Source: Acidobacteriota bacterium (lineage in GTDB: Bacteria > Acidobacteriota > Terriglobia > Terriglobales > Acidobacteriaceae). Taken from it: a DNA stretch of 7,889 nucleotides. This document shows positions 2,788 through 7,748 of this stretch, piece by piece (position 1 is the stretch's first letter; each line of letters begins with the position of its first letter). Made by a program: the position numbers and the translations under genes. The stretch is from the NCBI GenBank assembly GCA_021781255.1, contig JAJXXG010001226.1:1-7889 (forward strand), in the 5' to 3' direction. The notes beneath the pieces were generated by a model that made no database searches, had not been told where the DNA came from, and was given only the letters and a program-made list of their open reading frames with translations.

Positions 2788-3846
2788 TCAGGATGCAGTA
2801 AATGCGCGGCGGATGGCCTCGTTCCAGGCCTGTTTGAACTGAATCGAAAGGCTTGCCTGGGGAATGAGGGCGTCAAAAGCGTGGAATGCGCCGGGGACCA
2901 GCGACAACTCAGTGGGCACGGCGGAGGCGATGAGGCGCTGAGCGTAGTCGATATCTTCCGGGGCAAAGAGGTCGATTGAGCCGACGCCGATAAAGGCCGG
3001 CGCAAGACCGGCGAGGTCGGCAACGCGCGCGGGCACGGAATTGGCAGGCACAGTGCTTGCTCCGGCGGGCACCCCAAGCAGCGCGGTCCAGCCGTAGCAG
3101 TTCATCTGGGGGGTCCAGATATATTTGCCGAATTGACTTGGAATCTGGCGGGAGGAGCCGGTGCGGTCATCGAGCATGGGATAGATAAGCACCTGGAGGC
3201 ATAGGGGAAACTCGCCACGATCGCGAGCGGCAATAGCCAGCGCAGCAGCGTGGCCTCCGCCTGCGCTCTCACCTTTCACGGCGATGCGGGTCGTGTCGAT
3301 GCCAAGCTCTTTGGCCCTCGAGTGCATCCAGCGGAGTGCAGCATAGTTGTCTTCAAGCGATCCCGGAAAATGGGTCTCCGGAGCTAGGCGGTATTCGACG
3401 GTAACAGCTACGCAATTATGCGTGGTCGCCAGGTCCTGGATCTCCCGGCGTGAGCTAAGCGCTGAGCCCAGAACGTATCCGCCCCCGTGCATGTGCAGGA
3501 CGGCGGGTTTGGATGCACCGGCGACGTCGCCGCAAACATACACCGTCACCTGTGGCGCACCGGTGGGGCCGGGAATCAGCTGTTCCCTGACCGCGGGTGT
3601 GAGCGTCGGGGGTGGGGTCGGGAAGCCGTGGTCACGCAGTTGCCTGAGCGTGGCGTCATCCAAGTGGCCGCCTTCTCCTGACGACTTGAGGAACTGTTCC
3701 AGGGCAGGGCGGAACTCGATGTTAACCAGGCTCATCGGATCAGCGGGAGCAGCGGGTGCGGGCGTCTGGGATTCAGCGGCGCGGGGCAGCACGGCGGCGG
3801 CAGCCAGGGTGCATCCCATGGAAAGAAGTTCGCGGCGTGTGATCAT
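2788..3846 (-). CDS. Exported alpha/beta hydrolase, hormone-sensitive-lipase (family IV) esterase
   Basis: The 352-residue protein has the family IV esterase layout. HGGGYVLGS (oxyanion hole, HGGG at 120-123) comes first, then GESAG with nucleophile Ser194, Asp292 in SIDLF, and His322 in GAFHAF, forming a complete triad. These enzymes hydrolyse short-chain acyl esters. The N-terminus MITRRELLSMG, followed by an alanine-rich hydrophobic stretch and an A/P-rich linker, is a twin-arginine (Tat) signal peptide. The enzyme is therefore probably exported folded, to the periplasm if the cell is Gram-negative. I chose the ATG at 3846 because it has GGAG 9 bases upstream and places the twin arginine at residues 4-5. 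The frame stays open to an ATG at 3945, but that start has no ribosome-binding site, would bury the signal peptide, and would include a tandem repeat. The substrate is unknown, and nothing nearby identifies it. Confidence 0.88.
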   Translation of the reverse strand: MITRRELLSMGCTLAAAAVLPRAAESQTPAPAAPADPMSLVNIEFRPALEQFLKSSGEGGHLDDATLRQLRDHGFPTPPPTLTPAVREQLIPGPTGAPQVTVYVCGDVAGASKPAVLHMHGGGYVLGSALSSRREIQDLATTHNCVAVTVEYRLAPETHFPGSLEDNYAALRWMHSRAKELGIDTTRIAVKGESAGGGHAAALAIAARDRGEFPLCLQVLIYPMLDDRTGSSRQIPSQFGKYIWTPQMNCYGWTALLGVPAGASTVPANSVPARVADLAGLAPAFIGVGSIDLFAPEDIDYAQRLIASAVPTELSLVPGAFHAFDALIPQASLSIQFKQAWNEAIRRAFTAS

Positions 3847-3855
3847 GAGGTTCAA

Positions 3856-3859
3856 CTCC
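3856..3859 (-). promoter_or_regulatory. Ribosome-binding site deciding the esterase start
   Basis: Read on the - strand, GGAG stands 9 bases before the ATG at 3846, whereas the upstream in-frame ATG at 3945 is preceded by CCCGTA with no purine-rich site. This, with the Tat signal peptide, favours the shorter protein. Confidence 0.55.
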
Positions 3860-3862
3860 ATC

Positions 3863-3898
3863 TTTGAGGTTGATGCCGGCTTTGAGGTCGATGCCGGT
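3863..3898. repeat. Tandem 18-bp direct repeat, two copies
   Basis: TTTGAGGTTGATGCCGGC (3863-3880) is immediately followed by TTTGAGGTCGATGCCGGT (3881-3898), differing at two positions. It lies in the leader of the esterase gene. If the longer start were used it would encode a doubled P-A-S-T-S-K. Confidence 0.8.
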
Positions 3899-4214
3899 TC
3901 CAGTGTAACCGGCGTGAGACGGCGCAGGGCTTTCCGGTATGGCATTACGGGAAAAAAGCACTCCTGGGCTCGGGATCGGCCGCATCCGCATGCGACGCGT
4001 TCCTGATGCTTCGGCCGAGAGCCTTACGCCATTGCCGTCGAGCCTGTTCCGTGCAAATCGCTGGTCAAATGCTCCGCAAATTCGGTTTTCTGAAGCCGCA
4101 AGATATTGAGGTAACCTGCGTGAAGTAAATACCCATCTGCGACTACATCAGAAGGACGGATTGACAGCGACCAAAAACCAGAATAAGAATGGCTCACCAA
4201 AGTTGAAGTATCCT

Positions 4215-4423: not shown

Positions 4424-6913
4424 ATGGCATCGCCAACACTGTCAACCGAGCAGGTGGAAACCACCCTGACCATGCCTGATGCAGAGCTGTTTCGAGAGAT
4501 CGATGGACTGCAACTGAACGAACGGCTCTTACGGTGGAAGGAAGCGCGGCGCAACGCCCCCTGGCGGGTCTGCACCCGGCGGCAGCAACTGGTCATGGAG
4601 TCCTGGAAAGAGACCGAGGGGGAGGATATTGAGATACGCAGAGCGAAGATGCTCGCCAAGATTCTTGCCTCCGTGCCGATAGACATCCTCGACTTCGACC
4701 TGATCGTCGGGAGGATTTCCACCGGGCTTCTCGCGGCCACGACTGCGATCGACATCTGCGGGGATTACATCCCGGGCCTGTGGGAAGATGACTCCAACCT
4801 GGAGCTCAACCTTACCGCGAAGGGCGCGTTGCCTGCCGAGGACCGGCAGATACTGAGAGAGTGCACGAAGTACTTTGCTGGCAAGACGGCGCCGGACCAC
4901 ATCCAGTCCGCCTGGCATAGCGTGGTAGGGACATGGTCGGACGATTGTGTGGAAGCAAAACTCAAGGATCCGGCTCCAGTGGTCGGTTTTGTCCCAGGAG
5001 CGTCTGGCTCCTTAATGTGGGATAGAGCGCTGGCCAAAGGCATGCGGGGGTTCATCGACGAGGCGCTGGGGCACATCGATAGCTTTCTAGAGAGCAAAGA
5101 TACCGATATCCGCAAGCTGTATTTCTGGAAGTCGGTAATTATCGTGTGCGAAGCGGCGATCGCTTACGCTCACCGCTATGCTGAGCTGGCCCGGCAAATG
5201 GCGAACTCTGAGTCCAATGCCGCCCGGAAACAGGAACTGTTGCAGATCGCCGAAGTATGCGACTGGGTTCCCGAGAATCGGCCGCGCAGCTTCCACGAAG
5301 CCATCCAAGCAATGCACTTTATCGGAGTTTGCAAGAACCTGGAGGATCCAGCATGCTATTACCCCGTGCTCGGCCGTATCGACCAGTATCTGTGGCCGTA
5401 TTTTGCCGACGACTTCCGTGTGGGAAATCTCACTCTGGAACGGGCAGCGGAGCTGCTGGCGTGCGGCCTCGGACACTGGGGCAGCCAGATCTTTATTGCG
5501 AACGCGATCTCCAGGCAGACCCATCAAATCAGCTTCGGCATCAACTCGCTGAATGTCGGCGGAGTGGATAAGGAGGGCAATGACGCTGCGAACCTGTTGA
5601 GCTATCTTATCCTCCACGTGATCGGTTTGCTCAAGCTTTCGACTCCCACGGTCGGTTTGCAGTGGCACAAGGACACGCCGCGCTGGCTTCTGGATAAGGC
5701 GGTCGAGACCAATGTCAAAGTTAAGGGCGGAATACCGTTATTCGAGAATGGCGATTATATCGTCCAGTACTTCGCCGCGTACGGCATTCCAGAGGAAAGA
5801 GCCAGGGACTGGTATGGATTGGGCTGTGTGATGCCCGTGGTGCTGGGGACCATAGAGCATGTAGGCAGTGAAGGCCTGGGAGCGATCAATGGCGCCTGCG
5901 TTCTCGATATAACGCTGCACAACGGGCGCTCGGCGATCACCGGGAAACAGGTAGGCATCGAGACAGGCGACCCCCGCGGTTTTACGACGTTTGAGCAATT
6001 GTTCGATGCGTATAAGAAACAGTATGAGTTCGTGACGAAGCGCATGTTCTGGCTGGCGGCCATAGCCCGGCAGGAAAACGAGAAGTATGTGCGCCTGCCT
6101 TTCCTCTCGATGCTCAATTCCGAACAGTGCATGGAAAAGGGCAAGGACACGGTGGTCACGGACCCTGCGTACCACACTTTCTGCCAGGGCGATCGGGCGG
6201 TCATCGATACGGCGGATTCTCTGATAGCGGTCAAGAAGCTCGTCTTCGAGGAGAAGAAGATCTCAATGAGTGAGCTCCTGGATGCGCTGGATTCTAATTT
6301 TGCGGGAGCGCGCGGGGAACAGATAAGGCAGATGTGCCTGGCGGCGCCCAAATACGGCAATGACATCGATGAGGCCGACGTGATGGTTCGCGATGTGGGC
6401 GCGTTAAACGGGGCAGTGATCCGATCCTACGACAATAGCCCGGACCGGCCCTTCAATGTTGTCCGGGAGGGGTTGTCGTGGCATTATTTCGGCGGCCTGG
6501 GCGTGGGGGCGCTACCCAATGGCCGCAAGTCAAAGAAGCCGCTGAACGATGGTTCCATGTCGCCCATGCGGGGAATGGATAAGGCCGGGCCGACGGGCGT
6601 TCTTCGCTCCGCGCTCAAAGCGGGCTTTCGCGAATCGCTGCCCTGCGCCCTGAATCAGAAGTTCTCTGCGAGCGCTGTTCAAAGCCCGGAGAGCCGAGGG
6701 AAGCTTGCGGTGCTTACCGATACGTTCCTGAGACAGGGCGGGCAGCATATCCAATACAACCTGGTGGACACCAGGGAACTGCTCGATGCCAAAGCGCATC
6801 CGGAAAAGTACCAGGACCTGGTAGTGCGGGTAGGCGGTTTCAGCGCGTACTTTGTGCAACTCTCGCCGGAGATCCAGGACGATGTGATCAACCGCAGCCA
6901 GCAGGGGTTATAG
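4424..6913 (+). CDS. Glycyl radical enzyme (PFL-like) of unknown reaction, with an atypical Cys-Val-Met active-site motif
   Basis: This complete 829-residue member of the pyruvate formate-lyase/glycyl radical family uses a backbone glycyl radical, installed by a radical-SAM activase, to generate a thiyl radical that attacks the substrate without oxygen. Family marks are NVGGVDKEGND (377-387), the thiyl cysteine Cys468 in GLGCVMP, DGSMSPMRGMDKAGPT (709-724), HIQYN (775-779) and the radical loop RVGGFSAYF with Gly805, 25 residues from the C-terminus. Length and Cys-Gly spacing (337) suit the PFL2/dehydratase/decarboxylase/sulfite-lyase classes. The general-base Glu of the usual C-x-E motif is Met470 here, and the common GHxxPDY region reads as ASGSLMWDRAL instead. 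The position 15 after the cysteine, an Arg in benzylsuccinate synthase, is Glu483. Substrate and reaction are therefore unassigned. No activase or transporter is adjacent. Start ATG 4424 has GAGG 5 bases upstream. Arginine codons are mostly CGN. Confidence 0.92.
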   Translation: MASPTLSTEQVETTLTMPDAELFREIDGLQLNERLLRWKEARRNAPWRVCTRRQQLVMESWKETEGEDIEIRRAKMLAKILASVPIDILDFDLIVGRISTGLLAATTAIDICGDYIPGLWEDDSNLELNLTAKGALPAEDRQILRECTKYFAGKTAPDHIQSAWHSVVGTWSDDCVEAKLKDPAPVVGFVPGASGSLMWDRALAKGMRGFIDEALGHIDSFLESKDTDIRKLYFWKSVIIVCEAAIAYAHRYAELARQMANSESNAARKQELLQIAEVCDWVPENRPRSFHEAIQAMHFIGVCKNLEDPACYYPVLGRIDQYLWPYFADDFRVGNLTLERAAELLACGLGHWGSQIFIANAISRQTHQISFGINSLNVGGVDKEGNDAANLLSYLILHVIGLLKLSTPTVGLQWHKDTPRWLLDKAVETNVKVKGGIPLFENGDYIVQYFAAYGIPEERARDWYGLGCVMPVVLGTIEHVGSEGLGAINGACVLDITLHNGRSAITGKQVGIETGDPRGFTTFEQLFDAYKKQYEFVTKRMFWLAAIARQENEKYVRLPFLSMLNSEQCMEKGKDTVVTDPAYHTFCQGDRAVIDTADSLIAVKKLVFEEKKISMSELLDALDSNFAGARGEQIRQMCLAAPKYGNDIDEADVMVRDVGALNGAVIRSYDNSPDRPFNVVREGLSWHYFGGLGVGALPNGRKSKKPLNDGSMSPMRGMDKAGPTGVLRSALKAGFRESLPCALNQKFSASAVQSPESRGKLAVLTDTFLRQGGQHIQYNLVDTRELLDAKAHPEKYQDLVVRVGGFSAYFVQLSPEIQDDVINRSQQGL

Positions 6914-6946: not shown

Positions 6947-7004
6947 AACAGTTCAGTTACTTTTGATATCCAGTACCTTTAGCCTCAAAAGTAACTGAAC
7001 TGTT
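6947..7004. repeat. Perfect 20-bp inverted repeat between convergent genes, terminator-like or mobile-element remnant
   Basis: The arm at 6947-6966 (starting AACAGTTCAG) and the arm at 6985-7004 (ending CTGAACTGTT) are exact reverse complements over 20 bases, with an 18-base spacer. It begins 33 bases after the glycyl radical enzyme stop and ends 84 bases before the end of the convergent cyclase gene. The arms are only 35% GC, and no T-run follows on either strand. A bidirectional transcription stop is the simplest reading. The long AT-rich arms and large loop are also unlike an ordinary rho-independent terminator. Confidence 0.7.
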
Positions 7005-7088
7005 ACAACAAACATCGAGGTAACGGCGGCGCCAGCTTCCGTGCCGCCGCACTTCGCCTGGATAGAGTCGCCTGAGACCGCTGCACCC

Positions 7089-7748
7089 TTAACGCAGCGG
7101 GCGCAGGATGGCCCGGGCGGGGCCGGCGTCGCCGCCCTGCATGAGGAGCGGAAGGCAGAGCAACTCGTATTCGCCGGGCGGCACATGACCCAGCGCACAG
7201 GATTCCAGAACGTAAATGCCCGCTCCGAGCAATGTTATATGCACTTTCTTCAGGTCCTCTTCCTTTTTGATGTCGCCGAGGCTAATGACGTCCAACCCGA
7301 AGAGGACGATCTCCTTCTCAGCCAGATACTCCGCCCCAGCAGGGGCGAGGTACACGAAATCCTCCATCCACCCTGGCCCTTCGTAGGCGCGTGGGGAATT
7401 GCGTGTCTTGCACAGGATGCGCTCGCCCTTGCGGATGTTGTGCCGTTCCAACTCCTCTGCGCTGATCTTTTCCGGATCTTTGATCTCAATCACCCGCGCC
7501 GGCCCTATGGTGGCATCCAGCGGCATGTCGGAGATCGTGGATCCCCCGGGAATAAAGTGGGTCGGAGAATCGACGTGCGTGCCGGTGTGCGAGATGATCT
7601 CGATCTTGCTCATCGTTACTGGAGCCCCCAGCGCCGGATCAAACATGCGATAAATTCTCGGGGGCACCGGATCCATGGGGTTGTAGACCATGTCCTGCTT
7701 GAGAGGGACAGAAATGTCATACCAGCCTTGGGGTACTTTGACAGCCAT
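7089..7748 (-). CDS. Cyclase family protein (PF04199), metal-dependent hydrolase of the kynurenine formamidase/isatin hydrolase fold
   Basis: The 219-residue protein has the family signature HTGTHVDSPTHF (His54, His58, Asp60, His64), which binds the catalytic metals. It also has a GLD motif at 151-153, His170 in VHITLLGAGIYVLE, and a C-terminal segment with ELLCLPLLMQGGDAGPARAIL. Characterised relatives hydrolyse amide, lactam or lactone bonds, for example N-formylkynurenine or isatin, in the cytosol. The overall family is clear, but the substrate cannot be read from sequence. No signal peptide is seen. The ATG at 7748 is well supported by AAGGAG (7757-7762 on the - strand) with an 8-base spacer. 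It is convergent with the glycyl radical enzyme, so the two are not co-transcribed. A functional link is possible but unsupported. Confidence 0.88.
   Translation of the reverse strand: MAVKVPQGWYDISVPLKQDMVYNPMDPVPPRIYRMFDPALGAPVTMSKIEIISHTGTHVDSPTHFIPGGSTISDMPLDATIGPARVIEIKDPEKISAEELERHNIRKGERILCKTRNSPRAYEGPGWMEDFVYLAPAGAEYLAEKEIVLFGLDVISLGDIKKEEDLKKVHITLLGAGIYVLESCALGHVPPGEYELLCLPLLMQGGDAGPARAILRPLR

Follow-up and report, generated by a model that had tools for sequence, protein, structure and literature searches.

A glycyl radical enzyme clade of Acidobacteriota and Chloroflexota that lacks the CxE glutamate and may have a relocated carboxylate

About ten reactions of glycyl radical enzymes (GREs) have reportedly been counted. 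We analyzed a GRE gene on contig JAJXXG010001226.1 (assembly GCA_021781255.1), a stretch of 7,889 nucleotides that we call the window and whose host is probably one of the Acidobacteriota. Among the closest described enzymes are eliminases such as glycerol and propanediol dehydratase, CutC, HypD, and IslA/IseG, which have a Glu two residues after the catalytic Cys (the +2 position). Excerpts of two studies call this CxE motif conserved in GRE eliminases (PMC8473560, PMC7077986), and the E470Q change in IslA was reported, again in an excerpt, to abolish activity. The X-succinate synthases (BSS/TutD and MasD) do without it: the Cys loops of BSS and MasD are CMSP. Phenylacetate decarboxylase (PAD, or PhdB) is another apparent case. 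As excerpted, one study changed Glu502 of indoleacetate decarboxylase to Gln “to mimic PAD”, which implies that PAD has Gln there (PMC9248008). The window protein also lacks the Glu, and has Met470 instead. The original prediction, which was made from the sequence alone, took it for an uncharacterized GRE subfamily without the usual Glu. It also stated that most members of several groups, decarboxylases among them, keep this Glu, which seems not to be true of all decarboxylases, given the Gln implied in PAD.

A clade without the CxE glutamate

The GRE gene is intact, and its product of 829 amino acids matches the Pfam models for PFL-like (451 bits) and Gly_radical (88 bits), both above the cut-off. 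The two marks of the superfamily, a Gly loop of the form RVxG[FWY] (here RVGGF) and a mid-protein thiyl Cys (GC468V), are present in this protein and throughout the alignment of 121 proteins described below. An aminoacyl radical enzyme, with Ala, Ser, or Thr for the Gly of RVxG, is ruled out because Gly805 is present. Checking the codons confirmed the predicted Cys loop (Gly467 at 5822-5824, Cys468 at 5825-5827, Val469 at 5828-5830, Met470 at 5831-5833, and Pro471 at 5834-5836). The prediction was also right that the Cys-Cys pair of pyruvate formate-lyase is absent (the loop is GCVMP) and that ASGSLMWDRAL, at residues 193-203, stands in place of the GHxxPDY-type region. Besides lacking this Cys pair, the window protein matches the sequence of pyruvate formate-lyase only in the C-terminal part.

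Of the 624 matches from a search of 5.8 billion proteins, we aligned the best 120, clustered at 90% identity, with the window protein (n = 121). Their identity to the window protein is 58% or higher. Cys468 and Gly805 never vary in the 121 proteins, while residue 470 is Thr in 107, Ser in 4, Gln in 4, Met in 3, Tyr in 2, and Ala in 1. Because Glu never occurs there, its absence is a property of the clade, and Met is a local variant. Among the aligned proteins, Met470 is found only in the window protein and in two relatives, P0002 (92% identity) and P0003 (85%). Since both of these also have CVM, and since all 121 proteins have something other than Glu, a sequencing slip at Met470 is ruled out. 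Nor is Met a lone loss from Glu-bearing relatives, as no aligned homologue has Glu470. The cluster with conserved CVM that the prediction expected is not supported, with Met in 3 of 121 proteins and Thr in 107.

Losing the +2 Glu is not unique to the window protein: it is also missing from the succinate synthases, from PAD, and from the family of a Chloroflexota GRE, L045. Nor is it a rule of the wider superclade, as 5 of 26 sequences from the sister groups keep Glu. (Another 14 have Gln.) The L045 family (L045, L046, L047, and P0242-P0361) is a second uncharacterized GRE clade without CxE, and a possible relative of PhdB. A scan of 120 listed proteins of this family with a crude pattern gave 121 matches, with His (43), Val (39), Leu (15), Gln (10), Ile (6), or another residue (8) at +2, and Glu in none. 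The site on strand beta-8 that is discussed below is Tyr in 101 of these 121 matches.

None of the NCBIfam profiles matched the window protein above its cut-off. The top hit was to a general PFL2-3 subfamily (474 bits, cut-off 678). The equivalogs for the eliminases HypD (410 bits, cut-off 1100), CutC (388, 1050), HpsG (431, 1000), and HpfG (344, 1000) were far below their cut-offs, and those for the arylacetate decarboxylases HPAD (276, 1150) and IAD (313, 1100) also fell short. In trees, the window clade has support of 100/100, lies within a superclade rich in Chloroflexota, and is separated from the tested CutC, HypD, YbiW, HpsG-like, and succinate-synthase-like sequences. It was not placed inside a characterized cluster with CVM, in trees that were built without PhdB, BSS, MasD, IAD, HPAD, glycerol dehydratase, or PFL sequences. 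In a comparison of folds, the window protein was closest to the CxE eliminases. (Its AlphaFold2 (AF2) model has a predicted local distance difference test score (pLDDT) of 84 and a predicted template modeling score of 0.89.) We found no description of the clade in the literature we searched. Overall, the window encodes an intact GRE with a glycerol/diol-dehydratase-like fold, from an uncharacterized clade without the CxE Glu, much as the original prediction proposed.

The nearest sisters of the clade are GRE paralogs from metagenome-assembled genomes (MAGs) of Chloroflexota (G002, G003, and relatives), at 42-46% identity. We know of no characterized member. They share Q368, H398, T429, D590-R591, R681, and G683 with the window clade: these are found in 44 of 44 sequences from the window clade and the sister groups (not counting L043 and L044) and are rare outside. 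They differ in having GCSQP or other Cys motifs, with Gln, Glu, or other residues at +2; in lacking the SEG loop insertion; and in having Asn, Gln, Pro, or Asp where the window clade has Glu682.

Some of these genomes have many GREs. G002 (NC_groundwater_644, a Chloroflexi MAG of about 5.0 Mb) has 23 distinct GRE genes, from 27 matches of which four are second pieces of genes (loci L012, L014, L017, L020, L023, L026, L028, L035-L040, and L045-L054). G003 has 11 near full-length GREs and 2 fragments. In another genome, L019 (G004:C41:15995-18043) is a GRE homolog whose Gly loop, RVASTVAYF, has Ser replacing the radical Gly. It is a candidate seryl radical enzyme, and enzymes of a similar kind are described in an excerpt of PMC11528403. 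L075 (G534:C23), a GRE of the sister groups, lies beside genes for MttB-type methyltransferase-like proteins and a corrinoid protein, judging from the starts of their sequences.

Candidate active-site residues and possible reactions

Although the +2 Glu is missing, another carboxylate is nearly invariant: Glu682, on strand beta-8, is present in 120 of the 121 clade proteins (the exception has Gly) and in none of 48 other de-duplicated GRE sequences. At this position, the 26 sister sequences have Asn (21), Gln (3), Pro (1), or Asp (1), L043 and L044 both have Arg, and the 20 sequences from outside these groups are mixed. In an ungapped alignment of beta-8 to IseG, and from IseG to IslA via L030, Glu682 pairs with Val680 of IslA, and Leu684 pairs with Phe682. 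(We verified the chain numbering of IslA, for Cys468, Glu470, Arg189, Gln193, Trp374, Arg678, Val680, and Phe682, on the alignment.) An excerpt of PMC8473560 places Val680 about 3 Å from the catalytic Cys. If the conserved P-[ND]-G-R after the strand is lined up instead, Glu682 pairs with Gln707 of BSS, whose carbonyl is said, in an excerpt of PMC13298812, to hydrogen-bond Cys493. By alignment, then, Glu682 probably adjoins Cys468 and is a candidate for a relocated carboxylate. This near-invariant carboxylate at the beta-8 site appears to be new.

Two other polar residues, His479 and Glu483, are invariant in the clade, and Glu483 lies within an insertion that is specific to the clade (a gap in all 48 other sequences). 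Other sites distinguish the clade or the window protein from the eliminases. Where eliminases have an aromatic residue near the Cys, before the GG of beta-3 (Trp374 in IslA), 116 of the 121 proteins, including the window's, have Ile373, and the others have Leu. Arg189 and Gln193 of IslA correspond to Val190 and Ser194. The original prediction concluded that the chemistry does not use an acid/base Glu. This was overstated, given that Glu682 aligns near the Cys and that Glu483 never varies in the clade: the carboxylate may have been relocated, not lost.

We tentatively favor a lyase of the eliminase type whose base has moved, although we consider it somewhat short of an even bet, and both the reaction and the substrate are putative. 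From what is known of the family, an activase would form the radical on Gly805, which would pass it to Cys468, and the resulting thiyl radical would abstract a hydrogen atom from the substrate. Proton transfer, the task of the +2 Glu in the eliminases, would fall to the carboxylate on beta-8 (Glu682), with Glu483 and His479 of the clade's loop perhaps assisting or even performing it. A neighboring group would then leave, by cleavage of a C-O, C-N, or C-C bond. The substrate might be an acid or an alcohol that is freed by the esterase encoded next to the GRE, which is a guess.

Several observations weigh against this proposal. The AF2 model is weakest at beta-8 (mean pLDDT of 48 for residues 681-690, and below 50 for 684-700 and 702-718), and the alignment is our only ground for thinking that Glu682 would point inward. 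In the 5 sister sequences that keep the +2 Glu, residue 682 is Asp or Asn, and in sequences from outside the superclade that lack the +2 Glu, it is Tyr, Thr, Ser, Leu, Gly, Val, Ala, or Met, so there is no general trade-off between the two positions across GREs. Also, there is no activase among the open reading frames (ORFs) of the window.

If no base is needed near the Cys, then Glu682 need not have replaced anything. An ordinary eliminase might act on a substrate with, for instance, a self-assisted leaving group, and the +2 residue would only shape the pocket. This would fit the range of sizes and polarities at +2 within the clade (Thr, Ser, Gln, Met, Tyr, and Ala), but it leaves the near-invariant Glu682 and the invariant Glu483 and His479 unexplained, and we consider it unlikely.

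Radical addition would not need a base either: in an enzyme like the X-succinate synthases, the thiyl radical would give rise to a carbon radical, which adds to an acceptor. The likeness to these enzymes includes the lack of a CxE Glu, the Pro at +3 (as in CMSP), and the aliphatic residue at the beta-3 site, where BSS has Leu and eliminases have an aromatic. (Leu391 and Val709 are pocket residues of BSS, and small subunits are a mark of the enzyme.) However, BSS and MasD scored below the eliminases in both sequence and fold, and a branch with support of 99/97 divides the window clade from the succinate-synthase-like L051 and L054 (BSS and MasD themselves are outside the tree). The clade also has no equivalent, by alignment, of Arg508 of BSS. 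The original prediction compared this residue to Glu483, correctly counted as 15 residues after Cys468, but this is a count and not a homologous site, because Glu483 sits in the insertion found only in the clade. We therefore rejected that position as the equivalent of Arg508. The sites that do align with the Arg508 loop, which is two residues longer in BSS (counted on the alignment up to the following helix), are Gly481 (121 of 121) and Ser, Ala, or Cys at 482 (Ser in the window protein). In 109 of the 121 proteins, including the window's, there is no Arg between 469 and 495, yet residue 476, eight positions past the Cys, is Lys or Arg in 110. Finally, two conserved Glu would repel fumarate. 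Radical addition seems quite improbable.

The lack of the CxE Glu is also shared with PAD, and the enzyme might be a radical decarboxylase or another C-C lyase that works by hydrogen abstraction, as proposed for PhdB. Gln, the residue implied in PAD (PMC9248008, as excerpted), is found at this position in 4 of the 121 clade proteins and 14 of the 26 sister sequences, and PhdB has an acidobacterial source according to excerpts of PMC6181972 and PMC9226047, which matches the probable host of the window. On the other hand, a fingerprint of PhdB residues (His327, Cys482, Tyr691, and Gly815) matched no protein in our analysis set, and the L045 family, with its Tyr at the beta-8 site, may be a better relative of PhdB (this is only a lead). 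We doubt that the window protein is such a lyase.

Gene neighborhood and the rest of the window

The GRE gene lies between a divergent esterase gene and a convergent gene for a cyclase-like hydrolase (Table 1). For context, we considered five of the 156 genomes in the order of G001, namely those whose GRE is 81-88% identical to a clade member from Dehalococcoidia (P0024). For each type of neighbor, one member was scanned with profiles and the others were assigned by BLAST. The gene lists for these contexts covered ORFs of at least 90 amino acids.

Table 1. Positions of the GRE gene, its motifs, and the adjacent genes in the window
Feature	Position	Strand	Remarks
GRE, 829 amino acids, PFL-like and Gly_radical domains	4424..6913	+	ORF and profile matches; AF2 model
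Cys loop GCVMP (Gly467-Pro471), with thiyl Cys468 and Met470 at the CxE position	5822..5836	+	Residue 470 is Glu in 0/121
Loop His479-Val-Gly-Ser-Glu483	5858..5872	+	His479 and Glu483 invariant (121/121); Glu483 within clade-specific insertion
Gly589-Asp590-Arg591-Ala592 on beta-7	6188..6199	+	Asp590-Arg591 in 44/44 sequences (window clade and sister groups)
Beta-8 stretch Arg681-Glu682-Gly683-Leu684-Ser685-Trp686-His687	6464..6484	+	Candidate for the moved carboxylate: Glu682 (6467-6469)
Gly loop VRVGGFSAYF; codon of the radical Gly805 at 6836-6838	6824..6853	+	Gly805 in 121/121
Abhydrolase_3 esterase (LipP1 model 179 bits, cut-off 350)	2788..3945	-	Divergent neighbor; likely functional partner of the GRE
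PF04199 cyclase/arylformamidase-like hydrolase (TIGR03035 143 bits, cut-off 223)	7089..7748	-	Convergent neighbor; weakly linked

In all five Dehalococcoidia loci, an activase gene is directly upstream of the GRE (the one that was scanned matches TIGR02494 at 349 bits). This bears on whether the window protein could be a degenerate paralog that lost its base along with its activity. The missing activase and the variable +2 residue would fit, but the ORF is intact, Cys468 and Gly805 are invariant in 121 proteins, as are many more columns of the 44-sequence alignment, the relatives do have an adjacent activase, and the clade GRE is the sole match to PF02901 in four of the five genomes searched. 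An inactive protein is very improbable.

An esterase gene is directly downstream of the GRE in three of the five loci (two Abhydrolase_3-like and one COesterase). The window's esterase, whose start looks twin-arginine-like by eye, shares 44% and 47% identity with the esterases beside the GREs of G491 and G492. Its top match in G491 is this adjacent gene, and G492 has two strong matches, of which the adjacent gene is one. In G001, the sole strong homolog lies away from the GRE, about 1.2 kb from a cyclase homolog, and neither G493 nor G004 has a strong match. The link between esterase and GRE across two phyla is suggestive, and not universal.

The cyclase is more weakly linked. Homologs (64-73% identity) are present in four of the five genomes, away from the GRE, and in just 7 of the 156 genomes of the order, four of which have the clade GRE. 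(As MAGs, these genomes may not be complete.) The cyclase is thus a poor candidate for a tight partner. In Dehalococcoidia, its homologs sit in a cluster that is shared by related species, with MutS, flavodoxin-like, FAH-like, and arg genes (judging from sequence starts).

Other neighbors of the GRE in the Dehalococcoidia loci are an IclR regulator (3/5), a cupin-like protein (4/5; no Pfam match itself, but weakly similar to a Cupin_2 protein), and a SnoaL protein beside the activase (2/5). In G004, a UGSC-like protein is encoded downstream of the GRE, as also in three loci of G002 (L076-L078). The UGSC model scores one of these proteins at 34 bits, short of its cut-off of 125. The three G002 stretches have genes for solute-binding-like proteins (from sequence starts) as well as UGSC-like proteins around their GREs.

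Elsewhere in the window, scans for Rfam families and tRNAs had no match. A perfect inverted repeat of 20 nucleotides with an 18-nucleotide loop (6947-7004) separates the GRE gene from the cyclase gene that converges on it and is perhaps a shared terminator. Another inverted repeat, of 25 nucleotides and 84% complementary (2768-2792 and 7071-7095), flanks the esterase-GRE block and may be due to chance. An adenosine deaminase family gene is at 1571-2605. Many of its homologs are named aminodeoxyfutalosine deaminase in the source, and all six organism-named matches among the best 120 listed are from Terracidiphilus (81-83% identity), which points to a probable host among the Acidobacteriota. The C-terminal part of an acyl-CoA dehydrogenase (1-652) has a GC content of 0.51, or 0.57 at third codon positions (GC3), as compared to 0.58-0.63 and 0.70-0.74 for genes from 1571 on (a small DUF2905 gene has a GC3 of 0.68). 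The first part of the window is possibly foreign DNA or an assembly join.

Implications for glycyl radical enzymes

The CxE motif is a common basis for guessing what a GRE does, yet here a deep clade without it, with at least 120 homologs at 90% clustering, keeps the eliminase fold. This uncharacterized branch of the GREs really does depart from the CxE rule, and does so across the clade. The names “formate C-acetyltransferase” and “pyruvate-formate lyase”, which many genes of the clade have in the source, are probably wrong. More speculatively, and with slightly less confidence than we have in a moved base, this large branch of Acidobacteriota and Chloroflexota might carry out a reaction that is new to the superfamily, using the Glu682 carboxylate on beta-8 and the His479/Glu483 loop, in an anaerobic degradation that is linked to esterases. 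More broadly, the clade makes it possible to test, with a few point mutants, whether the base of a GRE must sit on the Cys loop.
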